From Methanospirillum hungatei (GTDB lineage Archaea; Halobacteriota; Methanomicrobia; Methanomicrobiales; Methanospirillaceae), in the NCBI RefSeq assembly GCF_019263745.1, contig NZ_CP077107.1, forward strand, positions 620,001-684,000: a stretch of DNA of 64,000 bases, in the 5' to 3' direction. Under the pieces are notes generated by a model. It was not told where the DNA came from. It made no database searches and saw nothing but the letters and a program-made list of their open reading frames with translations. Of the stretch, positions 35,278-46,847 are shown in pieces (positions within the stretch are counted from its first letter, which is position 1; every line of letters begins with the position of its first letter). The translations under genes and the position numbers were made by a program.

Positions 35278-35976
35278 TCAATCCCGACGATCAACAACCC
35301 ACACTCCATCGATTTCACGAACCAGAAGTATGGGTGTATTTTGTATCCTCATGGGTTGGGGGAATTTTCTAAACCGGATTCTGCCTTCAGATACTCTTTT
35401 GCCATCAGCGGATATGATTGATGAGATCCCGGCTTTAAGAATTTCTTTAACATCAGCTTCTCCATGGAGATCACGTATCGTTCCAACCTGAATATATCGT
35501 CCATCTGATCCTGATGCTGCCAGACCTACTGCGGCAAGTGCTCCAATAATCCCCCCATTTGTACCACCAAGCCCCAATAGCCGGATTCCAGAATTCATTG
35601 CCAGCGTTATAGCTTGATCCTTGGTTAAAATCATCGATTTGGCATCTTTTCCAAATATCACTACTGCCGGGTTTACCTGGTCATGGAAAGCCATACACAC
35701 ACCAGGATCACTTCCTTCTGCTGCTTTGGTTTTTATTATTTCTGCGATTTCATCAAAGAGAGAATCCAAAGATTCATCCTGAACACCAGTGAGATGAAGA
35801 ACTGCTGCACTATTATGCGATGTATATGGAATGTCAGGATGGACAAACAGTTGATGTCTGGTTATCCCAAGAACAGTATATTTTTGGTTTATATGAAGAG
35901 CAATTTCTCGTGCAAGTCTCCCGGTCCCCGGACTTGTGGGCATATCTGTATCATCAAGTGCAATGTACAAAATCAT
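35278..35976 (-). CDS. TiaS-like protein (DUF1743-related)
   Basis: A 232-residue protein. IALDDTDMPTSPGTGRLARE at the start is the DDTD motif of the TiaS family, which uses ATP in tRNA-Ile2 agmatidine synthesis. The chain then shows SHNSAAVLHLTG, VCMAFHDQVNPAVVIFGKDA and GLGGTNGGIIGALAAVGLAA, and lacks the C-terminal zinc and OB domains of true TiaS (about 420 residues). It is therefore a paralogue of unknown substrate. Upstream at 36109-36147 lies a motif also found ahead of the tungstate-binding protein gene. Confidence 0.75.
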   Translation of the reverse strand: MILYIALDDTDMPTSPGTGRLAREIALHINQKYTVLGITRHQLFVHPDIPYTSHNSAAVLHLTGVQDESLDSLFDEIAEIIKTKAAEGSDPGVCMAFHDQVNPAVVIFGKDAKSMILTKDQAITLAMNSGIRLLGLGGTNGGIIGALAAVGLAASGSDGRYIQVGTIRDLHGEADVKEILKAGISSIISADGKRVSEGRIRFRKFPQPMRIQNTPILLVREIDGVWVVDRRD

Positions 35977-36303: not shown

Positions 36304-36651
36304 TTATTTTCTGGTAATACGGACAATCTCTTGAAACACTTGATCCCCAAGGAGTGCTTTACTTTCTTCAGGATGAAGTTCCTGCATTACGCAAACAAGT
36401 TTACTTGAACCTTTATTTGTAGTCAGTATACCAACACGTTCTGCTCGTGTAACAAGTTCCTGTTCTTCCATCATGGCAAAATACGGGAGAATGTAATAAT
36501 GGGGAACTTCAAGATATTCTGCAAGCCGACGGGTGGTTGGAAATCTGATATGTATCCCATCTTTTGAAAATGTAAGTGTTATTGCATTATCTTCAAAAAG
36601 AAATATTTTAACCGCAGATTCAAAGAGGCCTTCGATTGAGAGCGATGGCAT
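36304..36651 (-). CDS. Small helix-rich protein, predicted winged helix
   Basis: A 115-residue protein with TTRRLAEYLEVPHYYILPYF then MMEEQELVTRAERVGILTTN, that is a helix-turn-helix-like centre followed by a wing strand. The N-terminal part AVKIFLFEDNAITLTFSKDG is a beta hairpin. Such small proteins in methanogens are often regulators. It precedes the 67-residue gene on the same strand, which lies 47 bases further upstream. Confidence 0.6.
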   Translation of the reverse strand: MPSLSIEGLFESAVKIFLFEDNAITLTFSKDGIHIRFPTTRRLAEYLEVPHYYILPYFAMMEEQELVTRAERVGILTTNKGSSKLVCVMQELHPEESKALLGDQVFQEIVRITRK

Positions 36652-36698: not shown

Positions 36699-36902
36699 TT
36701 AGTGTTTTTTCTTCTGGTCATCTGCTACAGGTTCGAGCCACACGATCTCAGCACCAACTTCTTTTGCTATCATTTCTAGTTCAATTTTTCTGAAGTGGGT
36801 TGCTACGACCTGGATTTGTCCGCCGGTTACTGCCACGATCCGGTATTTGGGCTGTTTTACACCTGCACCAACCTTTTGTCTTTCTCGCACAAAAATTTTC
36901 AT
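36699..36902 (-). CDS. Small basic conserved protein, possibly metal-related
   Basis: A 67-residue protein (MKIFVRERQKVGAGVKQPKY at the start, then RIVAVTGGQIQVVATHFRKI and ELEMIAKEVGAEIVWLEP). It looks like a compact beta-alpha-beta domain with a basic surface. No family is recognised. It is divergent from the molybdenum-storage-like gene with a shared promoter region of 220 bases, so it may belong to the same regulon. Confidence 0.65.
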   Translation of the reverse strand: MKIFVRERQKVGAGVKQPKYRIVAVTGGQIQVVATHFRKIELEMIAKEVGAEIVWLEPVADDQKKKH

Positions 36903-37125
36903 ATGCTTGTCACCTCTGTTTACCAGTTGATATAAAATTACATCTGATATAGCAACTGGTTTGTCACAATTTATCTATAGTCTCTTCCCATATATATAAG
37001 TGTGCCTTCGTTGATATATCTCACCATATCAAAAAGAAATAAGATATTTTCGCGATAGTACACTATTCAGATAAGAATCAGGATAAATTTTTTCTGATTT
37101 TTTATAAATCATATTTTGGTGATCC
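36903..37125. promoter_or_regulatory. Divergent promoter region before the molybdenum-storage-like gene
   Basis: Inverted arms accagtt (36922-36928) and aactggt (36954-36960) are followed by ttgtcac. A strong TATA box catatatataagtg lies at 36988-37001 and ttttttataaatcat lies just before ATG 37126. The ribosome site is ggtgat. The arms match the half-sites of the palindrome at 31498-31515. Confidence 0.5.
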
Positions 37126-37941
37126 ATGCACGAACGACATGAAATTTTTAACAAACTTCAGGGAGAAACCCTGGTTAGAAAAGGACTATTTGACAGGTAT
37201 AATGAACGGCCGCTCATGCGAATACTTCCTGAATTAAATGTAATCAAAATTGGTGGCCATGGAATCATTGATTATGGTCGGGATGTGGTTCTTCCTCTTG
37301 TCGACGAAATTGGTGCCTTATCCAAAGATCATCAACTCATGATCATAACCGGAGGAGGTGTCAGAGTCAGACATATTATGGATATCGGGCTTGATCTCGG
37401 GATGCCAACCGGAGTGTTAGCAGAACTTACCAGTAAAATTTCTGAACAAAATGCGATGATGCTTGCCACTCTCTTAGCCCCATACAAGGCAAAGAGAATT
37501 CATACAAGTGATCTTCTGGAACTTCCAACACTCCTTGGAATGGGCGCATTGCCGGTAACTCATGGAACACCCCCATATGGACTTTATGAACACCCATCTG
37601 AACGAACGAACGGTGGAATACCACCTCATAGAACAGATACCGGTGCATTTCTCGCCGCTGAGGTTCTTGGAGCCAGAAGTTGTATCCTAGCCAAAAATGT
37701 TGACGGATTATATGACAAACATCCACTCAAGTATCCTGATGCAAAGTTAATTCCAGAGATCTCAGCGAGTGAACTTATAGCTATGGATATGGAAGACCTG
37801 GTTCTTGAAAGAAAACTTGTTGAACTCATGCTAGAATGCAGGAATGTGAAAGAGGTTCAGATTGTAAATGGTCACAAACCAGGAATGATTACCAGAGCGA
37901 TTAAAGGGGAAAAAGTAGGAACAATCATCCGAGCTGAGTAA
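37126..37941 (+). CDS. Amino-acid-kinase-fold protein like molybdenum storage protein subunits
   Basis: A 271-residue protein, a length very close to the alpha and beta subunits of the Azotobacter molybdenum storage protein (about 270). The kinase-fold nucleotide loops are visible: KIGGHGIIDYGRDVV, IITGGGVRVRHIMDIGLDLG and GGIPPHRTDTGAFLAAEVLG with CILAKNVDGLYDKHP. MoSto packs polyoxomolybdate or tungstate inside a hexameric cage using ATP. The position inside a Mo/W transport cluster supports a role in storing or handling these anions here. Other members of this fold are UMP kinase-like, so the assignment rests partly on context. Confidence 0.8.
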   Translation: MHERHEIFNKLQGETLVRKGLFDRYNERPLMRILPELNVIKIGGHGIIDYGRDVVLPLVDEIGALSKDHQLMIITGGGVRVRHIMDIGLDLGMPTGVLAELTSKISEQNAMMLATLLAPYKAKRIHTSDLLELPTLLGMGALPVTHGTPPYGLYEHPSERTNGGIPPHRTDTGAFLAAEVLGARSCILAKNVDGLYDKHPLKYPDAKLIPEISASELIAMDMEDLVLERKLVELMLECRNVKEVQIVNGHKPGMITRAIKGEKVGTIIRAE

Positions 37942-37999
37942 TAATGTTCCTGATAAAATAAAGATTTGAGGTTTCACTCCTGATTCTGAATATCACTTT

Positions 38000-38293
38000 A
38001 TGAATATGGAACAAATATCAGGTATGGATATGTTGCTCTATACCGGGTATATCGGAGGGATATGCACTACGATTGCATTTCTTCCCCAGGTAGTCAAGAC
38101 GTGGAACAGCAGGTCGGCACATGATCTCTCCTGGGGACTTTTGTTTTTACTTCTTATCGGAGTTTTTCTCTGGATGATTTATGGGATTGTAAGTGCAGAT
38201 ATTCCAGTTATGCTAGCAAATGGTGTAACAAGTATATTTATTGTCTCAATTGTTGGGATGAAGTGGTGGTTTGATCACCGCAACGCCCCATGA
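38000..38293 (+). CDS. SemiSWEET / PQ-loop transporter
   Basis: A 97-residue protein with three membrane helices. GGICTTIAFLPQVVKTWNSR holds the PQ-loop motif P-Q, and SAHDLSWGLLFLLLIGVFLW is helix 2. SemiSWEETs form dimers that move sugars or other small solutes. The gene follows the molybdenum-storage-like gene by 58 bases on the same strand and could share its transcript. Substrate is unknown. Confidence 0.9.
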   Translation: MNMEQISGMDMLLYTGYIGGICTTIAFLPQVVKTWNSRSAHDLSWGLLFLLLIGVFLWMIYGIVSADIPVMLANGVTSIFIVSIVGMKWWFDHRNAP

Positions 38294-38301
38294 GGTATGA
38301 A

Positions 38302-39429
38302 TCAAATTAAATGGATTTTTCTTTCATCTCTATATTGAATTATCCAGGCAAGGATAAGACCGGTAAAAAAACCTGCTGCCAGACCAAAAGGGACAGATAA
38401 TGCCGCAATGATGATAGTTACCAGATAATTATTCGTTTTCAATCCATGACGGATGAGTTCTGTCGCAACAACAATAAGAAGAATTCCAAAAATCCCAACA
38501 GGTAGAGCCTTTACAATATCCGAATCAGTACAGATTCCGGCAATAAGGAACAGAAGGACACCTCCAAATACTAAAGACAGACCCCCTCTGGCACCAAACC
38601 GGTAATGGGCTGCAAGCCCTCCTGCTCCATGACACATTGGAAAACCTCCAAAAAGTGATGAGCTCAAACTCATTACGCCGACTGTTTTTGAAAGTCGGTC
38701 AGGAGATTCTGTTTTTTGAAAGAGATCACAAATCAAAAGTGATGTTGCTAGTATTGCATTTGTCAGAGTCAGAGGTAACTGAGGAGGAAGGAGCAAGATT
38801 GTAGCCATAATGAATTCATCTGCTGTTGGGATTGTAAATCCAGGGATTGGTATGAATGAAAAAGATGGAAATCCCACAAGATAAAAAGCCACCAGAAATC
38901 CAAAAATAATAATACAGAAAGCTGAAAGATCAGGAATATGAGCATATTTTTTTCCTATTAAAAATGCTAAAACGATAAATGCGGATACTCCTGCAAAAAG
39001 GATATCAGGAAGAACAAATCCCATAACTGCACTTCGGATAAAAATTAGAGCAAGGCCCAGTTGAACTCCACGAATAACCGATTCAGGAATTATTCGTCTG
39101 ACCCGATCCATCCATCCCAAAAAACCGATACCAATACATATGATCCCCATCAGTATTCCGGATGCAGCAATTAAATGTGGAGAGAGATGATCTGCAATTG
39201 CAAGGGCACCAACTGCCTTGAGTGGTTCTACCGGGATTGGAATACGGTAGTATAAACCTGTCAGAATATACCAGACTCCAGCCCATGAAAGTATGAGAGT
39301 AATGTTCATATCACAGGCAACAGAGACAGCAAAAAGTAAGGGGAGAACGGTCCCAAAATTCCCCGCTGAACCAGCTAGTTCTGAAATAATATATGAATGC
39401 CGGGGAATTGACAGATCAAAGACATCCAT
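38302..39429 (-). CDS. MOT1-type molybdate (sulfate-like) transporter
   Basis: A 375-residue protein with about 11 membrane helices and the MOT1 features ELAGSAGNFGTVLPLLFAV near the N-terminus and GGFPMCHGAGGLAAHYRFGA at about residue 270. The family member MOT1 is a high-affinity molybdate transporter in plants, algae and many prokaryotes. Its start overlaps the ABC ATPase gene by 14 bases, so it is the last gene of tupA-tupB-tupC-mot1, an operon that joins two independent uptake systems for the same kind of anion. Confidence 0.9.
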   Translation of the reverse strand: MDVFDLSIPRHSYIISELAGSAGNFGTVLPLLFAVSVACDMNITLILSWAGVWYILTGLYYRIPIPVEPLKAVGALAIADHLSPHLIAASGILMGIICIGIGFLGWMDRVRRIIPESVIRGVQLGLALIFIRSAVMGFVLPDILFAGVSAFIVLAFLIGKKYAHIPDLSAFCIIIFGFLVAFYLVGFPSFSFIPIPGFTIPTADEFIMATILLLPPQLPLTLTNAILATSLLICDLFQKTESPDRLSKTVGVMSLSSSLFGGFPMCHGAGGLAAHYRFGARGGLSLVFGGVLLFLIAGICTDSDIVKALPVGIFGILLIVVATELIRHGLKTNNYLVTIIIAALSVPFGLAAGFFTGLILAWIIQYRDERKIHLI

Positions 39430-40510
39430 TATCGTTCTCTTCCGGCATTACGTGGACTGAGGGAGCTTTAAATGAGAGGATAACATCCTGACCTTTCGCC
39501 AGGTTCAGGTCCCTGATCGACTGCCAGGTTACCTGCACTGCAAGAGAGATGGAGCCACATGAAACGATAACATGACTTATAATACCATAAGGCTTTATAT
39601 CTGTAATTCTTCCCTGAATTACATTTCTTGCACTCATTTTTCCATCAGGTTCATTATATAATGTAATATCCTCTGGTCGTAATGCAACTGTGACTCTGCC
39701 ACTTTGAATGGAACTGAGTGCATGTAAAGTAACACCTCCCAAATCTACCAGGATCATCCCATCTTCATGTCCTGTGATGGTGCCAGAAAGGACATTACTA
39801 ATCCCGATGAACCGTGCAATATCAGCAGAACAAGGTTCAGAAAAAATCTTGATTGTATCACCAGCCTGAACAAACCTGCCTCCCATCATCACTGCGACCT
39901 TATCTGCAAGCCGTTGACCTTGAAAGAGATCGTGGGATGACATAATCACGGTAGTGCCAAATTCATGATTGTAGTACCTGATGAGCTCTTCAATTTTTTT
40001 GGTTGAAACTGGATCAAGATTTGCCGTTGGTTCATCCAGAAGGAGGAGATCCGGCTCAGTAATCATTACTCTCGCAAGTGAAACTCGTTGCATCTCTCCA
40101 CCTGAAAGTGTCCAGGCTTTTCTTTTTTCATACCCGGATAGTCCTATCTCTTCTAACTTTTCTTCTACTTTTCGGGTAATCTCTGCGGAGGAAACGTGCC
40201 TGTATCGAAGACCTAAAGCGATATTTTCAAAAACTGTCTCTTTAAATGATATTGGTGTTTGAAAAACCATCCCCATTCTTCGCCGTAATGAAGTAAGATC
40301 CTGACCTGGTTTTTGTAGAGAGATGCCGTCGAGGTAAATTTCTCCCCCGGATGGTGTATCAAGCAGATTAATAAGCCTGAGCAGAGTTGTCTTTCCCTGC
40401 CCTGATGGGCCGATAATAGTAAAAATTTCTCCGGCTAAAATTTCAGCAGATATTCGATCAAGAACTATCTTCTCATCGAAGGATTTAGAAATATTGTCCA
40501 ATCTGATCAT
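39416..40510 (-). CDS. tupC: Tungstate/molybdate ABC transporter ATP-binding protein
   Basis: A 364-residue ATPase. Walker A is IGPSGQGKTTLLRL, signature LSGGEMQRVSLAR, Walker B LLLLDEPTANLDP and switch SSHDLFQGQR. Residues 280-364 carry a TOBE-like domain (TVALRPEDITLY and VIVSCGSISLAVQVTW) that in ModC-type proteins binds the oxyanion and slows uptake. It follows the permease gene with a 3-base gap. Together with the neighbours it forms a TupABC-type importer. Confidence 0.93.
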   Translation of the reverse strand: MIRLDNISKSFDEKIVLDRISAEILAGEIFTIIGPSGQGKTTLLRLINLLDTPSGGEIYLDGISLQKPGQDLTSLRRRMGMVFQTPISFKETVFENIALGLRYRHVSSAEITRKVEEKLEEIGLSGYEKRKAWTLSGGEMQRVSLARVMITEPDLLLLDEPTANLDPVSTKKIEELIRYYNHEFGTTVIMSSHDLFQGQRLADKVAVMMGGRFVQAGDTIKIFSEPCSADIARFIGISNVLSGTITGHEDGMILVDLGGVTLHALSSIQSGRVTVALRPEDITLYNEPDGKMSARNVIQGRITDIKPYGIISHVIVSCGSISLAVQVTWQSIRDLNLAKGQDVILSFKAPSVHVMPEENDNGCL

Positions 40511-40513
40511 GAT

Positions 40514-41200
40514 TCACCGCTGCTGGAGGAAACCCATTACCAAGTTTATAATAAGAGCAATTCCAAGAAGAATTATTCCTAAAGCAAGTGAAAGTTCAAA
40601 GTTGCCCATTGAGGTTTGCAAGGATATCGCAGTTGTAAGAACACGGGTATGCCCTTTTATATTACCTCCAATCATGATTGCTGCCCCAACTTCAGAAAGA
40701 GCTCTTGAGAAGCCAATCACAATCGCAGCCATGATCACATACCTTGTCTCTCGTAAATGACTCAAAAGAAACTGGCTTTTTGTGGCACCAAGCGAACGTA
40801 TCGTATCTGTCAAGGTTGGGTTTACTCCCTGCAGAGCTGCTATGGTAAGTCCTGTCATGATAGGAATAACAAGGAAAGCCTGCCCGAATATCATTCCACT
40901 TGGAGTGAAAAGAAATCCCAGAAATCCGAGAGGACCTGATCTAGAAAGGAGCATGAAACAGACCAGCCCTACAATTACCGTGGGAAGCGCATAAAGAGTT
41001 TGGATCAGACTAATAAGAGTCTTTTTTCCACAGAATTCACTAAAATTTATCGCAGTTCCCAGAGGCAAAGCGATAATGGTACTGATTAATACAGAACTAA
41101 ATGTAATCTCGAGCGTCTTAAATGTAATCTCCATAACGTCCGGATTTTGGGAGATTATCAGATTGATTGCCGTAAAAAAAGCTGCTACAAAATCAATCAT
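40514..41200 (-). CDS. tupB: Tungstate ABC transporter permease
   Basis: A 228-residue permease with six membrane segments and the EAA-like loop RSLGATKSQFLLSHLRETRY that contacts the ATPase. Start at 41200 is an ATG (MIDFVAAFFTAINLI). The length and the helix pattern fit TupB/ModB-type permeases. It lies between the binding protein and the ATPase on the same strand, with gaps of 33 and 3 bases. Confidence 0.93.
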   Translation of the reverse strand: MIDFVAAFFTAINLIISQNPDVMEITFKTLEITFSSVLISTIIALPLGTAINFSEFCGKKTLISLIQTLYALPTVIVGLVCFMLLSRSGPLGFLGFLFTPSGMIFGQAFLVIPIMTGLTIAALQGVNPTLTDTIRSLGATKSQFLLSHLRETRYVIMAAIVIGFSRALSEVGAAIMIGGNIKGHTRVLTTAISLQTSMGNFELSLALGIILLGIALIINLVMGFLQQR

Positions 41201-41233
41201 TAATATAAAAAAGAGATGTCACGGTTAAAGAAT

Positions 41234-42169
41234 TTACTCAACCGGACTTGAAATTTCTTCTTCAGCGACGTTTAATGTAGCTGCATCACCCTTTGCTGGA
41301 ACAAAAAGTGCTTTTCCGTCTTTCTTGAAATCCGCAAAGAACTGCTGAGTTTCATCACTGATAATAAAGTTCGTCCACTTCTTTCCTGCGTCAACATTGA
41401 TAGCTACATCAGGGAATTTTTCCGGATTGATTCTCATAACAGCATAAATATTCAGAAGGTCTTTTCCATCGGTCACGAATGGAACAATTGTCAGGTTTTT
41501 CTCCATAGTGTTCCATGTTGCACCATCGGCGAGAGTGTATCCCTGCTTTTCTTCTGCCATATTAAGAGTCTGACCCATTCCAGCTGCTGCATCAATATAC
41601 CAGGACGAGGTGTTTACATCAGCATAATCGTATCCAGCCGCTTTCCAGATAAGTTTCTCGCGGGAGTGAGTTCCTGAAGCATCTCCACGGGATACAAAGA
41701 ATACTGAGTTGTCTTTTTCTCCAGCATCTGCAATTGACTTGAAAGCTTCAGAAGCAGTCTTACCTGCAATCTTTGCCGGGTCAGATTCGGGACCGGCTAC
41801 AAGGAAGTAGTTAGATGCGAATACACGGCGATCAAGACCGTATCCAGCATCGAGGAACTTATCCTCTGCTGCCCTGTCATGAACCATAACGAGATCAACA
41901 TCGCCACTTTCCCCATATTTGAGAGCTTGTCCAGTACCAACTGCTACCCACTCGGCGGTAACATTATACTTCTCTGCAAATTGTTTGGAGAGTTCGTCTA
42001 GTGCTCCAGTTGCATCAAGGCTTGTGGTTGTTCCAATCAGGAGACGGTCACTTGCGTGTTCGGATCCTTCAAGTCCTTCTGTAGTAAGCTTCTCAGCTGA
42101 TACTACCCCACAGAGAAGCATTACTCCCAGCACGAGGGCAATGATCCCAAACGATATTTTACCGATCAT
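41234..42169 (-). CDS. tupA: Tungstate ABC transporter substrate-binding protein
   Basis: A 311-residue exported binding protein with a signal peptide (IGKISFGIIALVLGVMLLC) and the TupA motif LIGTTTSLDATGALDELSKQ. Further hallmarks are GTGQALKYGESGDVDLVMVH and FFVSRGDASGTHSREKLIW, the oxyanion-contacting loops. TupA binds tungstate with much higher affinity than molybdate. A TATA box (aatatataattg region, 42192-42203) gives a short leader. The first gene of tupABC-mot1. Confidence 0.95.
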   Translation of the reverse strand: MIGKISFGIIALVLGVMLLCGVVSAEKLTTEGLEGSEHASDRLLIGTTTSLDATGALDELSKQFAEKYNVTAEWVAVGTGQALKYGESGDVDLVMVHDRAAEDKFLDAGYGLDRRVFASNYFLVAGPESDPAKIAGKTASEAFKSIADAGEKDNSVFFVSRGDASGTHSREKLIWKAAGYDYADVNTSSWYIDAAAGMGQTLNMAEEKQGYTLADGATWNTMEKNLTIVPFVTDGKDLLNIYAVMRINPEKFPDVAINVDAGKKWTNFIISDETQQFFADFKKDGKALFVPAKGDAATLNVAEEEISSPVE

Positions 42170-43476: not shown

Positions 43477-43878
43477 TTATTTTTTTTGGGAAAAATGCCA
43501 GTTTTCTCCTTCTGTGCAGATATCTTTCTTCCATATGGGGACATATGCTTTGATCTCTTCCAGAATCCATGAACAGGCAGCAAATCCTTCCTGTCGGTGA
43601 GAAGCTCCGACAACGATCACAAGAATAATTTCGGTCAGATTCATTCTGCCGACCCGGTGAACAATATCGATTGTCTGGAGGTGATATTCGTTCATTGCCT
43701 TTTTTGCTATCGTGTTCAGGTCTGCAAGTGCAACCTCTTCACACACTTCAAGATCAAGTGCTTCGATTCCATCATCCCGAACTGTACCAACAAAGGTCAC
43801 AATACCTCCGGTCTCCGGTTTTCTTGCAGATTCAATAAATGCATATGGATCTATTGGTTCTCTGGTAATTGCTATCAT
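43477..43878 (-). CDS. moaE: Molybdopterin synthase catalytic subunit MoaE
   Basis: A 133-residue MoaE. ARKPETGGIVTFVGTVRDDG is the N-terminal conserved loop, VHRVGRMNLTEIILVIVVGA then SHRQEGFAACSWILEEIKAY is the dimer core, and VPIWKKDICTEGENW holds the catalytic Lys pair. With MoaD-thiocarboxylate it converts precursor Z into molybdopterin. It is the last gene of ycaO-tfuA-thiF-moaD-moaE and lies 6 bases after moaD. Confidence 0.95.
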   Translation of the reverse strand: MIAITREPIDPYAFIESARKPETGGIVTFVGTVRDDGIEALDLEVCEEVALADLNTIAKKAMNEYHLQTIDIVHRVGRMNLTEIILVIVVGASHRQEGFAACSWILEEIKAYVPIWKKDICTEGENWHFSQKK

Positions 43879-43884
43879 CTAAAA

Positions 43885-44160
43885 TTATCCTCCTGAAACC
43901 GGTGGAAAGAGTATAAGAGAATCACCATCAGACAGGGGCACTGTACCTGCATCCATAGGTGAAATCCTGATATCACGATGCATGATCATCACATAACTTC
44001 GGATGTTTTTATCTTCATCAATCAAAAGTTCTGCATCAGGACCGGTCCCTGCAAGTGTTCTGACGGCATCTAAAATTGTAGCTCTGTCAGGAATGACAAG
44101 TTCTTGTTCATCACCAAAAGCATCACGAAACCGGGCATAACAACGAATTGTAACCTTCAT
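43885..44160 (-). CDS. moaD: MoaD-type ubiquitin-like sulfur carrier
   Basis: A 91-residue beta-grasp protein (KVTIRCYARFRDAFGDEQEL) that ends with SGG at the C-terminus (LFPPVSGG), the double glycine that is adenylated and turned into a thiocarboxylate. In its normal role it hands sulfur to MoaE for the dithiolene of molybdopterin. The start overlaps the thiF stop by four bases and moaE follows directly. Confidence 0.95.
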   Translation of the reverse strand: MKVTIRCYARFRDAFGDEQELVIPDRATILDAVRTLAGTGPDAELLIDEDKNIRSYVMIMHRDIRISPMDAGTVPLSDGDSLILFPPVSGG

Positions 44161-44906
44161 TTACGATCTTTCCCCTCTTCACAAACAGGACAATTATTTC
44201 TTTTGCCAATCTTCAGAAATTCAGTTCTACCAGAAAGTCCATCCCATATCAAAAGTCTGCCTGAAATCATCGTTCCGGATTTGGTGAGATATTTAATTGC
44301 TTCTAGTGCCTGCATGGAACCGATAACTCCGGCAGTTGCTCCAATAACCGGGACTTTTGCAGATGGAGGAACGGCAGTGATAAGACAAGACAGACATGGA
44401 GATGAGCCCGGAATAATACTGGTCAGTTGACCGGAGAATCCTTCTATTGCTCCGTGGATGAATGCAACATCAGCATTCCATGCAGATTCATGAAGAATAA
44501 ACCTTGATTCATAATTGTCAAGAGCATCTATAACAATATCAGCATCTTTGACAAGCCGGTCTGCAGAATTCTCATCAATCCTGATTGAATGAGCAATTAT
44601 GGAGGTATCTGGTGCTAATCCATGAATTGTTGCCTCTGCGGAGTATACTTTTTGGAGACCAACCGAACCAGCAGCATGAAGAAACTGACGGTTTAAATTA
44701 GACTCCTGGATAATATCATCGTCGACGATGATAAGTTCTCCAATACCGGCAAGAGCAAGATATGTTGCAGCCGGTGATCCAAGCCCCCCGGCTCCAGCAA
44801 TAAGAACAGTTGCATCCTCAAGATTTTTTTGCCCATCAGGTCCAATAAGAGGAATCTGACGTTCAAACCGATGGCTTGGATATCCCGGATTATGTGTAGA
44901 ATTCAT
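44157..44906 (-). CDS. ThiF/MoeB/HesA-type adenylyltransferase
   Basis: A 249-residue E1-like enzyme. VLIAGAGGLGSPAATYLALA is the nucleotide fold, ELIIVDDDIIQESNLNRQFL has the D-x-x-N-R motif that binds ATP, and two Cys pairs (CLSCLI near residue 170 and CPVCEEG at the end) bind zinc. It adenylates the C-terminal Gly of MoaD-type carriers. Its place between tfuA and moaD, with four-base overlaps on both sides, links the sulfur carrier to the thioamidation genes. Confidence 0.93.
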   Translation of the reverse strand: MNSTHNPGYPSHRFERQIPLIGPDGQKNLEDATVLIAGAGGLGSPAATYLALAGIGELIIVDDDIIQESNLNRQFLHAAGSVGLQKVYSAEATIHGLAPDTSIIAHSIRIDENSADRLVKDADIVIDALDNYESRFILHESAWNADVAFIHGAIEGFSGQLTSIIPGSSPCLSCLITAVPPSAKVPVIGATAGVIGSMQALEAIKYLTKSGTMISGRLLIWDGLSGRTEFLKIGKRNNCPVCEEGKDRK

Positions 44907-45544
44907 GTGTAGAACGTTTCCTTGATATAACTGAGAGCTTTTCTGGCATCTTCCTGTTTCTGATCAATTGCATGATCTTTTACCCAGGCGAGAATCTCAT
45001 CTTTTCTCTGTTGGTTAAAAGAACTTGCCTGCAGGATTCGGGGCCATGATCGATCAGGATACCAAAGAGATTTTCCGATACTGATAATCGACTGGGATTC
45101 ATCTGATGTGAAAAAACCGGTCTTTTCTCCATAATGAACGGTTACCCTGATATTTACCAAAGCTTCAGAAAAAGCCATGTTTGTTGTGGGATCACACATG
45201 AGTGCCACTTCATCATCTGATTCTATTATCCCATCCCGATACATCCTGAAAATCTCACCAATACCAATCATACCAAATGGTTCAAGTTCTGCAGCCCGAA
45301 GCGCACCCATGCTCGAAGCACCAACTACAGTGATACCATGTTTCATAACTTCCAATACTTCCCGATGCCCGACAGCTGCATCTTCAAAGAAGACACCGTC
45401 GATGATTCCAATGATCCGTGGTTTCATCCTGATAACTTCAAGCAGATCAACTCTTCTGACCGGAGGCCGATACTCTGCAGATAGTATCTCTGATGCCTTA
45501 TGAACCGACAGGCTTGGTCCCAGGAATATAATTACGTCGTGCAC
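44903..45544 (-). CDS. tfuA: TfuA-type McrA-glycine thioamidation protein
   Basis: A 213-residue TfuA protein from GTG 45544; an ATG at 45604 would add 20 residues that overlap ycaO without family similarity. DVIIFLGPSLSVHKASEIL is the typical TfuA opening, IIGIIDGVFFEDAAVGHRE and ASSMGALRAAELEPFGMIGI the core. TfuA works with YcaO to place sulfur on the backbone amide of a glycine in methyl-coenzyme M reductase subunit A. It overlaps ycaO (ending at 45498) by 47 bases and thiF by four. Confidence 0.93.
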   Translation of the reverse strand: MHDVIIFLGPSLSVHKASEILSAEYRPPVRRVDLLEVIRMKPRIIGIIDGVFFEDAAVGHREVLEVMKHGITVVGASSMGALRAAELEPFGMIGIGEIFRMYRDGIIESDDEVALMCDPTTNMAFSEALVNIRVTVHYGEKTGFFTSDESQSIISIGKSLWYPDRSWPRILQASSFNQQRKDEILAWVKDHAIDQKQEDARKALSYIKETFYT

Positions 45545-46769
45545 GTTTGCACCGTTCTCCTCGTCTTTCAGGATCCATGGCAAAATGTTCAAGTCCTGGA
45601 ACAATGACCCGAACTACCGGAACACCAATTTCAGGCCTGGTAAGATCGGTTACCAGGACCCGTTCAAGCCCTGCAGCTTTGAACCGATCAAGGACAATGT
45701 GAATATCGTCCAGGAAGTCATCAGTATGGTACGAAGGCATCTCACGGTATTGAAGTTCAGGTTCTAATGTAAACCATTTTTTATTAAGGCGCTTGGCCCG
45801 ATCATATCCCACTTTTGAAAGGAAATGGGTTGATTGGGTATCTTCTCGTGCTCCATGAATTTGAGTGGCCCTGCTCTGTGCAACCTCTGTTAATGCCCGG
45901 AGTATAGCTATTTCACTGCAAAGATGTGATCCCATCCCAATACACAGAAGGGTAGGATCACGAAGTTGGAGATCATCTGATACTGCCGCAACGGTCGGGA
46001 TTCCAAGGTCGCTCGTAATATCCCGCAATATCACATCAACCCCTGCCTTCTCAAACTTTTCCAGCAGGCTTTGTGCCACTGGATGAGTTATTTCAGTAAT
46101 CCTTGGTCCTGCATTGTTTGCTGATTCAACCAGTGACCAGGCATCACGCTCCACTAGTTCACACAGACTATGAAAGACAGCCTCTTCATAAGTATTTCCT
46201 GAAGCTATTCCATTTGTACTCGTCCTGAATAATTTACCCATAATACGCGGAACCGGGTGGAATACAGCATGAGCAGGAACCCAGACTTCCTCATTCTTTA
46301 TGATATCCCACGCCTGATACCAGGGAACCGGCCAGTCAGTGGGAGTATTCTCCGGAAGAATGAGAGAGTCAGGATTTATTGTTTTTTTGACTGACGAGAT
46401 CTGATCATATGTCATAATCTCCGGTGTTCTGTCATGAACTTCTGCTGAATATCGTTCAAGCCCTTCCATTATTGCCGATACTCTGGCAGCAATAGGTGTT
46501 GCTCCTTTCCCATTATATACAGTAATTGCTCCTTCGGCAGCAACGGGACGGATACAGGAAAAAACAGGAATTCCAATTCGATCTAATCCCGTGATATCAG
46601 CAACCCTGGTTATTCCGGCCGGCCCAGTGAGATCGCGGACCGCTTCATATGTTTCTTCAGGTGACTTAGTCCGATGAGTCTCCTGTTGGTAGAGTTTTTT
46701 ACAGGACGAGAGTAACATGTGCTCATATACGTTTTCATCTGGATACAAAAGAGTACGGGGTTCATGCAT
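45498..46769 (-). CDS. ycaO: YcaO-type McrA-glycine thioamidation protein
   Basis: A 423-residue YcaO protein from ATG 46769 (MHEPRTLLYPD). Family ATP-binding residues lie in ISAIMEGLERYSAEVHDRTP and AVFHSLCELVERDAWSLVES. The chain ends near GLERVLVTDLTRPEIGVPVV then GTKPVGS. YcaO phosphorylates the peptide amide, which is then swapped for sulfur; in methanogens the product is thioglycine in McrA. This gene is the first of an operon of five. The upstream side is divergent from the DUF2769 gene. Confidence 0.95.
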   Translation of the reverse strand: MHEPRTLLYPDENVYEHMLLSSCKKLYQQETHRTKSPEETYEAVRDLTGPAGITRVADITGLDRIGIPVFSCIRPVAAEGAITVYNGKGATPIAARVSAIMEGLERYSAEVHDRTPEIMTYDQISSVKKTINPDSLILPENTPTDWPVPWYQAWDIIKNEEVWVPAHAVFHPVPRIMGKLFRTSTNGIASGNTYEEAVFHSLCELVERDAWSLVESANNAGPRITEITHPVAQSLLEKFEKAGVDVILRDITSDLGIPTVAAVSDDLQLRDPTLLCIGMGSHLCSEIAILRALTEVAQSRATQIHGAREDTQSTHFLSKVGYDRAKRLNKKWFTLEPELQYREMPSYHTDDFLDDIHIVLDRFKAAGLERVLVTDLTRPEIGVPVVRVIVPGLEHFAMDPERRGERCKRARRNYIPGTKPVGS

Positions 46770-46847
46770 AAGGTAGTGTGATCCTGAAAGTATTAGGATG
46801 GACAGATTTATACGAATGAAATCACAACACACAACCGAGGGATCTCG

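Follow-up and report, generated by a model that had tools for sequence, protein, structure and literature searches.

Judged from its sequence and a structural model, a 271-residue protein encoded in Methanospirillum hungatei is a relative of the molybdenum storage protein (MoSto) and not a UMP kinase. We consider it probable that the locus around its gene, which lies in the 64,000-nucleotide stretch of DNA analyzed here (the window), encodes a single-gene, homomeric cage of the MoSto superfamily, which would be loaded in an ATP-dependent manner with tungsten and/or molybdenum supplied by TupABC- and MOT1-type importers and would work together with a partner protein of 67 aa. Homology, predicted fold, conservation of ATP-site residues, genomic linkage and co-occurrence are established. 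The following features of the window are concerned:

35278-35976, minus strand: 232-aa stand-alone TiaS-type TCKD kinase domain, putative (AF2 model, co-occurrence with MoSto)
36304-36651, minus strand: 115-aa conserved protein, possibly a winged-helix DNA-binding protein and candidate local regulator, following the 67-aa gene
36699-36902, minus strand: 67-aa small conserved protein outside Pfam and NCBIfam families, constant partner of single-gene MoSto-like proteins
36922-36960, no strand: inverted repeat with perfect 8-bp arms in the divergent promoter, candidate operator
37126-37941, plus strand: MoSto-like subunit of 271 aa, AA_kinase fold (PDB matches, AF2 model, own clade in the tree)
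38000-38293, plus strand: SemiSWEET-type small transporter (NCBIfam SemiSWEET_2, 89 bits, cut-off 80)
38302-39429, minus strand: MOT1-type molybdate carrier (Pfam MFS_MOT1 PF16983, E 2.8e-50)
39416-40510, minus strand: TupC/WtpC-like ABC ATPase with TOBE domain (Pfam ABC_tran and TOBE)
40514-41200, minus strand: TupB-like permease (NCBIfam ABC_perm1, 238 bits over a cut-off of 100)
41234-42169, minus strand: TupA-like tungstate-binding protein (PDB 3lr1, TTTS motif)

The initial annotation had described a kinase-fold protein of 271 residues resembling MoSto subunits, and such a protein is indeed encoded here, by a gene that occurs once in the whole genome (3.39 Mb, one contig). The nearest named relatives, with 90-97% identity, belong to Methanospirillum. 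When compared to solved structures in a PDB search, it matched MoSto beta (E 3e-60) and alpha (E 3e-52) far better than UMP kinases (E about 3e-10), the lead amounting to 50 orders of magnitude, and its identity to the MoSto subunits amounts to 42-44%. An AF2 model, for which an alignment of 43 relatives served as input (mean pLDDT 83), yielded Z scores of 31.6-33.3 with MoSto, compared to about 25 with UMP kinase and 20-21 with acetylglutamate kinase. MoSto is the nearest relative in sequence as well as in fold, and neither of the two kinases that the annotation had named as possible better fits accounts better for the model.

Features of the ATP site are retained. The glycine loops are present in the family, and according to the alignment residues K41 and K190, which are kept throughout, correspond to MosB K42 and K189, the ATP-site lysines of the beta subunit, which is the catalytic one (K42S, 6ris, being a studied variant). 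At the position of K189, MosA carries a Glu. The family also shares the invariant H83 with MoSto, and its own conserved residues include H250, C186 and an N-terminal GE(T/S)LVR motif, the conserved histidines being H83, H146, H156, H168 and H250. The initial annotation had suggested looking for the cluster-binding residues of MosA/MosB, but these have not been kept: in the alignment, none of the MosA residues E129, H130, H140 and H156, which we assume to be the ligands of the polyoxometalate clusters, is conserved, although one alignment places H126 opposite H130, so that this single position is unsure. Moreover, an invariant Thr occupies the position of MosB Met149 (beta 149), presumably the gate residue, throughout the clade, while a more distant Desulfobacterota clade retains the Met. 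The numbering of these ligands and of the gate fits the retrieved MosA and MosB sequences. The loop due to hold part of the cluster sites (residues 151-167) was poorly modelled by AF2. Since the presumed MosA ligands are absent, any clusters must be held differently. With the MosB-type lysines kept, we infer that storage by ATP-driven loading is likely. Relatedness to MoSto and the Mo/W context speak for the MoSto-like storage cage that had been proposed initially, whereas the missing ligands speak against clusters of the MoSto type.

Tree building with 137 rows placed the MoSto-like family in a supported clade of its own, with MosA and MosB each apart from it and with proteins of the phylum Desulfobacterota in a second, more distant clade; the branching order between the clades is unsure, as a quick tree method was used and the branches are long. 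One archaeal genus possesses two tandem copies that fall into two sister clades, so that its gene pair arose by a duplication other than that of MosA and MosB. At these tandem pairs (L108, L110, L111, L113, L116, L121) each copy has a small partner of its own; the duplication is independent of MosA/MosB and parallels it. At locus L138, which belongs to a Desulfobacterota-phylum genome, two Met-gated MoSto-like genes adjoin each other without the small partner, possibly a further heteromeric type.

The gene is not peculiar to this methanogen. The single-gene clade is common to Methanomicrobiales and Geobacterales, and most sampled Methanomicrobiales and many Geobacterales carry a member. The archaeal sample comprised 296 genomes of the phylum, 50 of which are MoSto carriers, in addition to one weak match. 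TupA is present in 49 of the 50 carriers versus 96 of the 246 other genomes, and its distance from MoSto is at most 5 kb in 31 of the carriers, at most 15 kb in 41 and at most 30 kb in 44, a closeness far above chance. MOT1 is found near MoSto in 39 loci. Neighbors in relatives include, besides MOT1, genes for MoeA, MoaC and MogA-like proteins as well as a ModE-like regulator and FdhA, the latter two named by eye from sequence. This linkage to Mo/W genes recurs with altered gene orders in Methanomicrobiales, in other archaeal families and in Geobacterales. The Methanospirillum genome itself encodes 11 molybdopterin-domain proteins, and for a close relative the reliance on formate dehydrogenases has been stressed (PMC11346949).

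A link of the MoSto-like gene to nitrogenase was considered and rejected. NifD scored over the cut-off in 36 of the 296 genomes, six of them MoSto carriers, and within the order genomes with nif tend, if anything, to lack the MoSto-like gene more often than those without (it is present in 5/12 nif-positive versus 39/50 nif-negative genomes; P 0.03, Fisher P values being descriptive only and overstating independence, as the sampled genomes are related). The Methanospirillum genome studied here does carry nifD.

The neighboring transporter genes form a tight run on the minus strand. The MOT1-type protein reached 169.8 bits with the MFS_MOT1 model, exceeding the gathering score of 30. The best solved match of the TupA-like protein is the tungstate-binding protein 3lr1 (E 4e-53), and it contains the motif TTTS, a TupA signature. 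All three Tup-like proteins scored below the curated NCBIfam cut-offs, i.e. the ATPase with its top model WtpC (279 bits, cut-off 440), the permease with the TupB equivalog (158 bits, cut-off 320) and the binding protein with NF041772 (190 bits, cut-off 400), the last cut-off perhaps being too strict for archaea, since none of the 296 archaeal genomes passes it. On these scores, we classify the importer as TupABC-like and not as an equivalog. The MOT1 and TupC genes overlap by exactly 14 bases, as noted initially, and gaps of 3 bp and 33 bp separate TupB from TupC and TupA from TupB, respectively. The proposal that both uptake routes are encoded on one transcript is consistent with this spacing, but cannot be extended to the storage gene: MoSto is located on the plus strand and converges with the Tup/MOT1 run, so that it is not part of the transporter transcript. 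The SemiSWEET gene is situated between MoSto and MOT1, 58 bp downstream of MoSto, and its pairing with MOT1 was seen again in several Methanoculleus loci (e.g. L039, L048, L057). Further along, positions 43477-46832 of the minus strand are occupied by another tight run, in which Mo cofactor genes (MoaE-, MoaD- and MoeB/ThiF-like) are joined with genes for McrA modification (TfuA of the McrA-glycine thioamidation type and a YcaO-like gene).

The closest functional partner of the MoSto-like protein is the 67-aa protein, which the initial annotation had not mentioned. Its gene is located just upstream of MoSto, between MoSto and the 115-aa gene, and relatives are present at 125 of 138 MoSto loci. 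Three placements occur: most Methanomicrobiales have the gene upstream of MoSto in divergent orientation, most Geobacterales have it immediately downstream in the same orientation, and in the Desulfobacterota clade it is located upstream, again with the orientation of MoSto. Among the 296 archaeal genomes, the profile of the family (A3) matched all 50 MoSto carriers versus two of the 246 others, these two genomes being 80-85% complete. In 45 of the 50 carriers the gene lies no more than 600 bp from MoSto, and in four of the remaining five (G062, G209, G214, G303) it is found beside the TCKD gene. In the bacterial sample, the family occurs in 15 MoSto carriers; the profile search did not detect it in G332, a bacterial genome with two MoSto-like genes, and no relatives were found at the Azospirillum mosAB loci. 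Searches of Pfam, NCBIfam and PDB returned no significant match for the family. Its invariant residues (K, two R, P, A, H, R, E, A) would fit a basic, possibly anion-binding protein.

A second companion is the 232-aa protein. Its AF2 model matched the N-terminal kinase domain of TiaS with a Z score of 22 over 149 residues, while its Pfam TCKD score (22.6) stayed under the cut-off of 27. Full TiaS comprises about 420 aa in solved structures, and the 232-aa protein is devoid of the further TiaS domains. It was found in 41 of the 296 genomes, of which 39 carry MoSto, and its gene adjoins MoSto in Methanoculleus and several Geobacterales. The protein is probably an accessory of the MoSto-like system, and we would guess that its substrate may be a nucleotide or a nucleotide-like cofactor. 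It also weakly resembles methanogenesis marker 11.

Regulation of the locus may involve the 115-aa protein, whose gene has the same orientation as the 67-aa gene and lies beside MoSto in 47 loci. The protein matched no Pfam or NCBIfam family, and its candidacy as a regulator therefore derives from position and appearance. It may bind to the inverted repeat in the divergent promoter, whose arms are ACCAGTTG (36922-36929) and CAACTGGT (36953-36960). A related element precedes MoSto in 65 of 118 archaeal and in none of 18 bacterial loci. The half-site pattern was matched 14 times genome-wide, and the two best matches carry one mismatch each; the site at the MoSto promoter is the only one between divergent genes, the second one-mismatch match lying within a gene. 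As the other genome matches mostly fall inside genes, we do not claim a regulon from this pattern. An Rfam search of the window returned no match.

How else could the 271-residue protein be explained? The superfamily fold and weak matches to models for UMP kinase and isopentenyl phosphate kinase would be compatible with a kinase of the UMP kinase superfamily which acts on nucleotides or small metabolites and resides near Mo/W genes by chance. However, the protein widely misses the cut-offs of all kinase models (79.9 bits with the NCBIfam UMP kinase model, cut-off 158, this model also being the top family for the 43 relatives, with similarly weak E-values), a separate true PyrH reaching 256 bits with the same model is encoded elsewhere in the genome, MoSto is nearest in sequence and structure, and the Mo/W linkage persists despite changed gene orders, which makes this explanation the most improbable one. 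Hardly more credible is a canonical MoSto that functions just as Azotobacter MosAB does and holds its polyoxometalate clusters at identical sites: while the degree of identity (42-44%) and the shared fold would agree, only a single gene is present, the presumed ligand and gate positions are occupied by other residues, and a small partner is present that is lacking at the Azospirillum mosAB loci.

The serious rival, owing to the loss of the presumed ligand positions, is a protein that serves molybdate/tungstate as an ATP-dependent kinase, sensor or delivery factor and not as a store; it would activate single oxyanions or pass them on to cofactor insertion, a step of the MoeA type, without forming clusters. 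At Geobacter locus L025 the gene directly follows moeA-moaC-mogA-like genes, the constant small basic 67-aa partner could be the acceptor, and linkage to transporters would equally suit a sensor or chaperone. Against this stand the high similarity to a proven storage cage over the whole chain and the possibility that a homomeric cage draws on residues other than the MosA ligands, such as H83, H146, H156, H168 and H250. On balance we regard such an activator as unlikely, though clearly less so than the two explanations above, and favor the homomeric storage cage.

For this cage the following mechanism can be envisaged. The neighboring importers would supply the oxyanions, tungstate via TupABC and molybdate via MOT1. 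The MoSto-like protein is predicted to assemble into a homomeric hexameric cage, in which ATP bound at each subunit would drive tungstate and/or molybdate inside, as proposed for MoSto. The cage would buffer the metal and release it for the many formate and formylmethanofuran dehydrogenases, i.e. pterin enzymes, and not for nitrogenase. The basic 67-aa protein would be a companion dedicated to this cage, most likely a loading or unloading factor that binds either the oxyanion or the cage itself.

So far, MoSto has been viewed as a peculiarity of nitrogen-fixing organisms. The bacterial MoSto family as such is known, since MoSto alpha genes are annotated on Azospirillum plasmids; in the searchable literature outside subscription journals and database-only annotation, no MoSto was found to be described from archaea or from Geobacter. 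The data suggest that stockpiling of tungsten or molybdenum in a so far undescribed manner is widespread among anaerobes. If true, single-gene MoSto proteins that are linked to tungstate import and occur in methanogens as well as in Geobacter-type bacteria would mean that metal reserves are more generally a trait of W/Mo-dependent anaerobes, namely those relying on W/Mo formate and formylmethanofuran dehydrogenases, and a simpler homomeric system would be at hand for asking how an oxyanion pump evolved from a kinase fold, with the small partner as a potential explanation of loading or release. Going further, one may tentatively picture a widespread metal-reserve module of anaerobes, consisting of the homomeric cage, an obligate 67-aa partner that loads or releases the metal and often a TiaS-like domain, which would serve W/Mo pterin enzymes instead of nitrogenase and hold the metal through new residues; we put less trust in this generalization than in the reading of the locus itself.

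Among known systems, Tub/Mop proteins, i.e. TOBE-domain tungstate/molybdate storage proteins of about 70 aa, resemble the MoSto-like protein in the proposed role as an intracellular oxyanion store fed by TupABC (PMC11980592), but differ in size and consist of an unrelated domain. Archaeal and bacterial PyrH share with it the amino acid kinase fold and weak sequence similarity; however, the protein stays under the curated UMP kinase cut-off and its model is closer to MoSto (Z 33) than to UMP kinase (Z 25). The importer has the gene set of TupABC, the TTTS motif and tungstate-binding proteins as nearest solved relatives, but scores under the equivalog cut-offs, and its TupC gene overlaps the MOT1 gene. 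Closest of all are MosA and MosB of Azotobacter vinelandii, with 42-44% identity, similar length, a fold shared over nearly the full chain, the glycine loops and the MosB-type lysines. In contrast to these two gene products, which form an (alpha-beta)3 heterohexamer, the Methanospirillum form derives from a single gene, and its family lacks the presumed cluster ligands of MosA and the Met gate of MosB, has a 67-aa protein as partner and W/Mo importers as neighbors, and occurs mostly in nitrogenase-free genomes.
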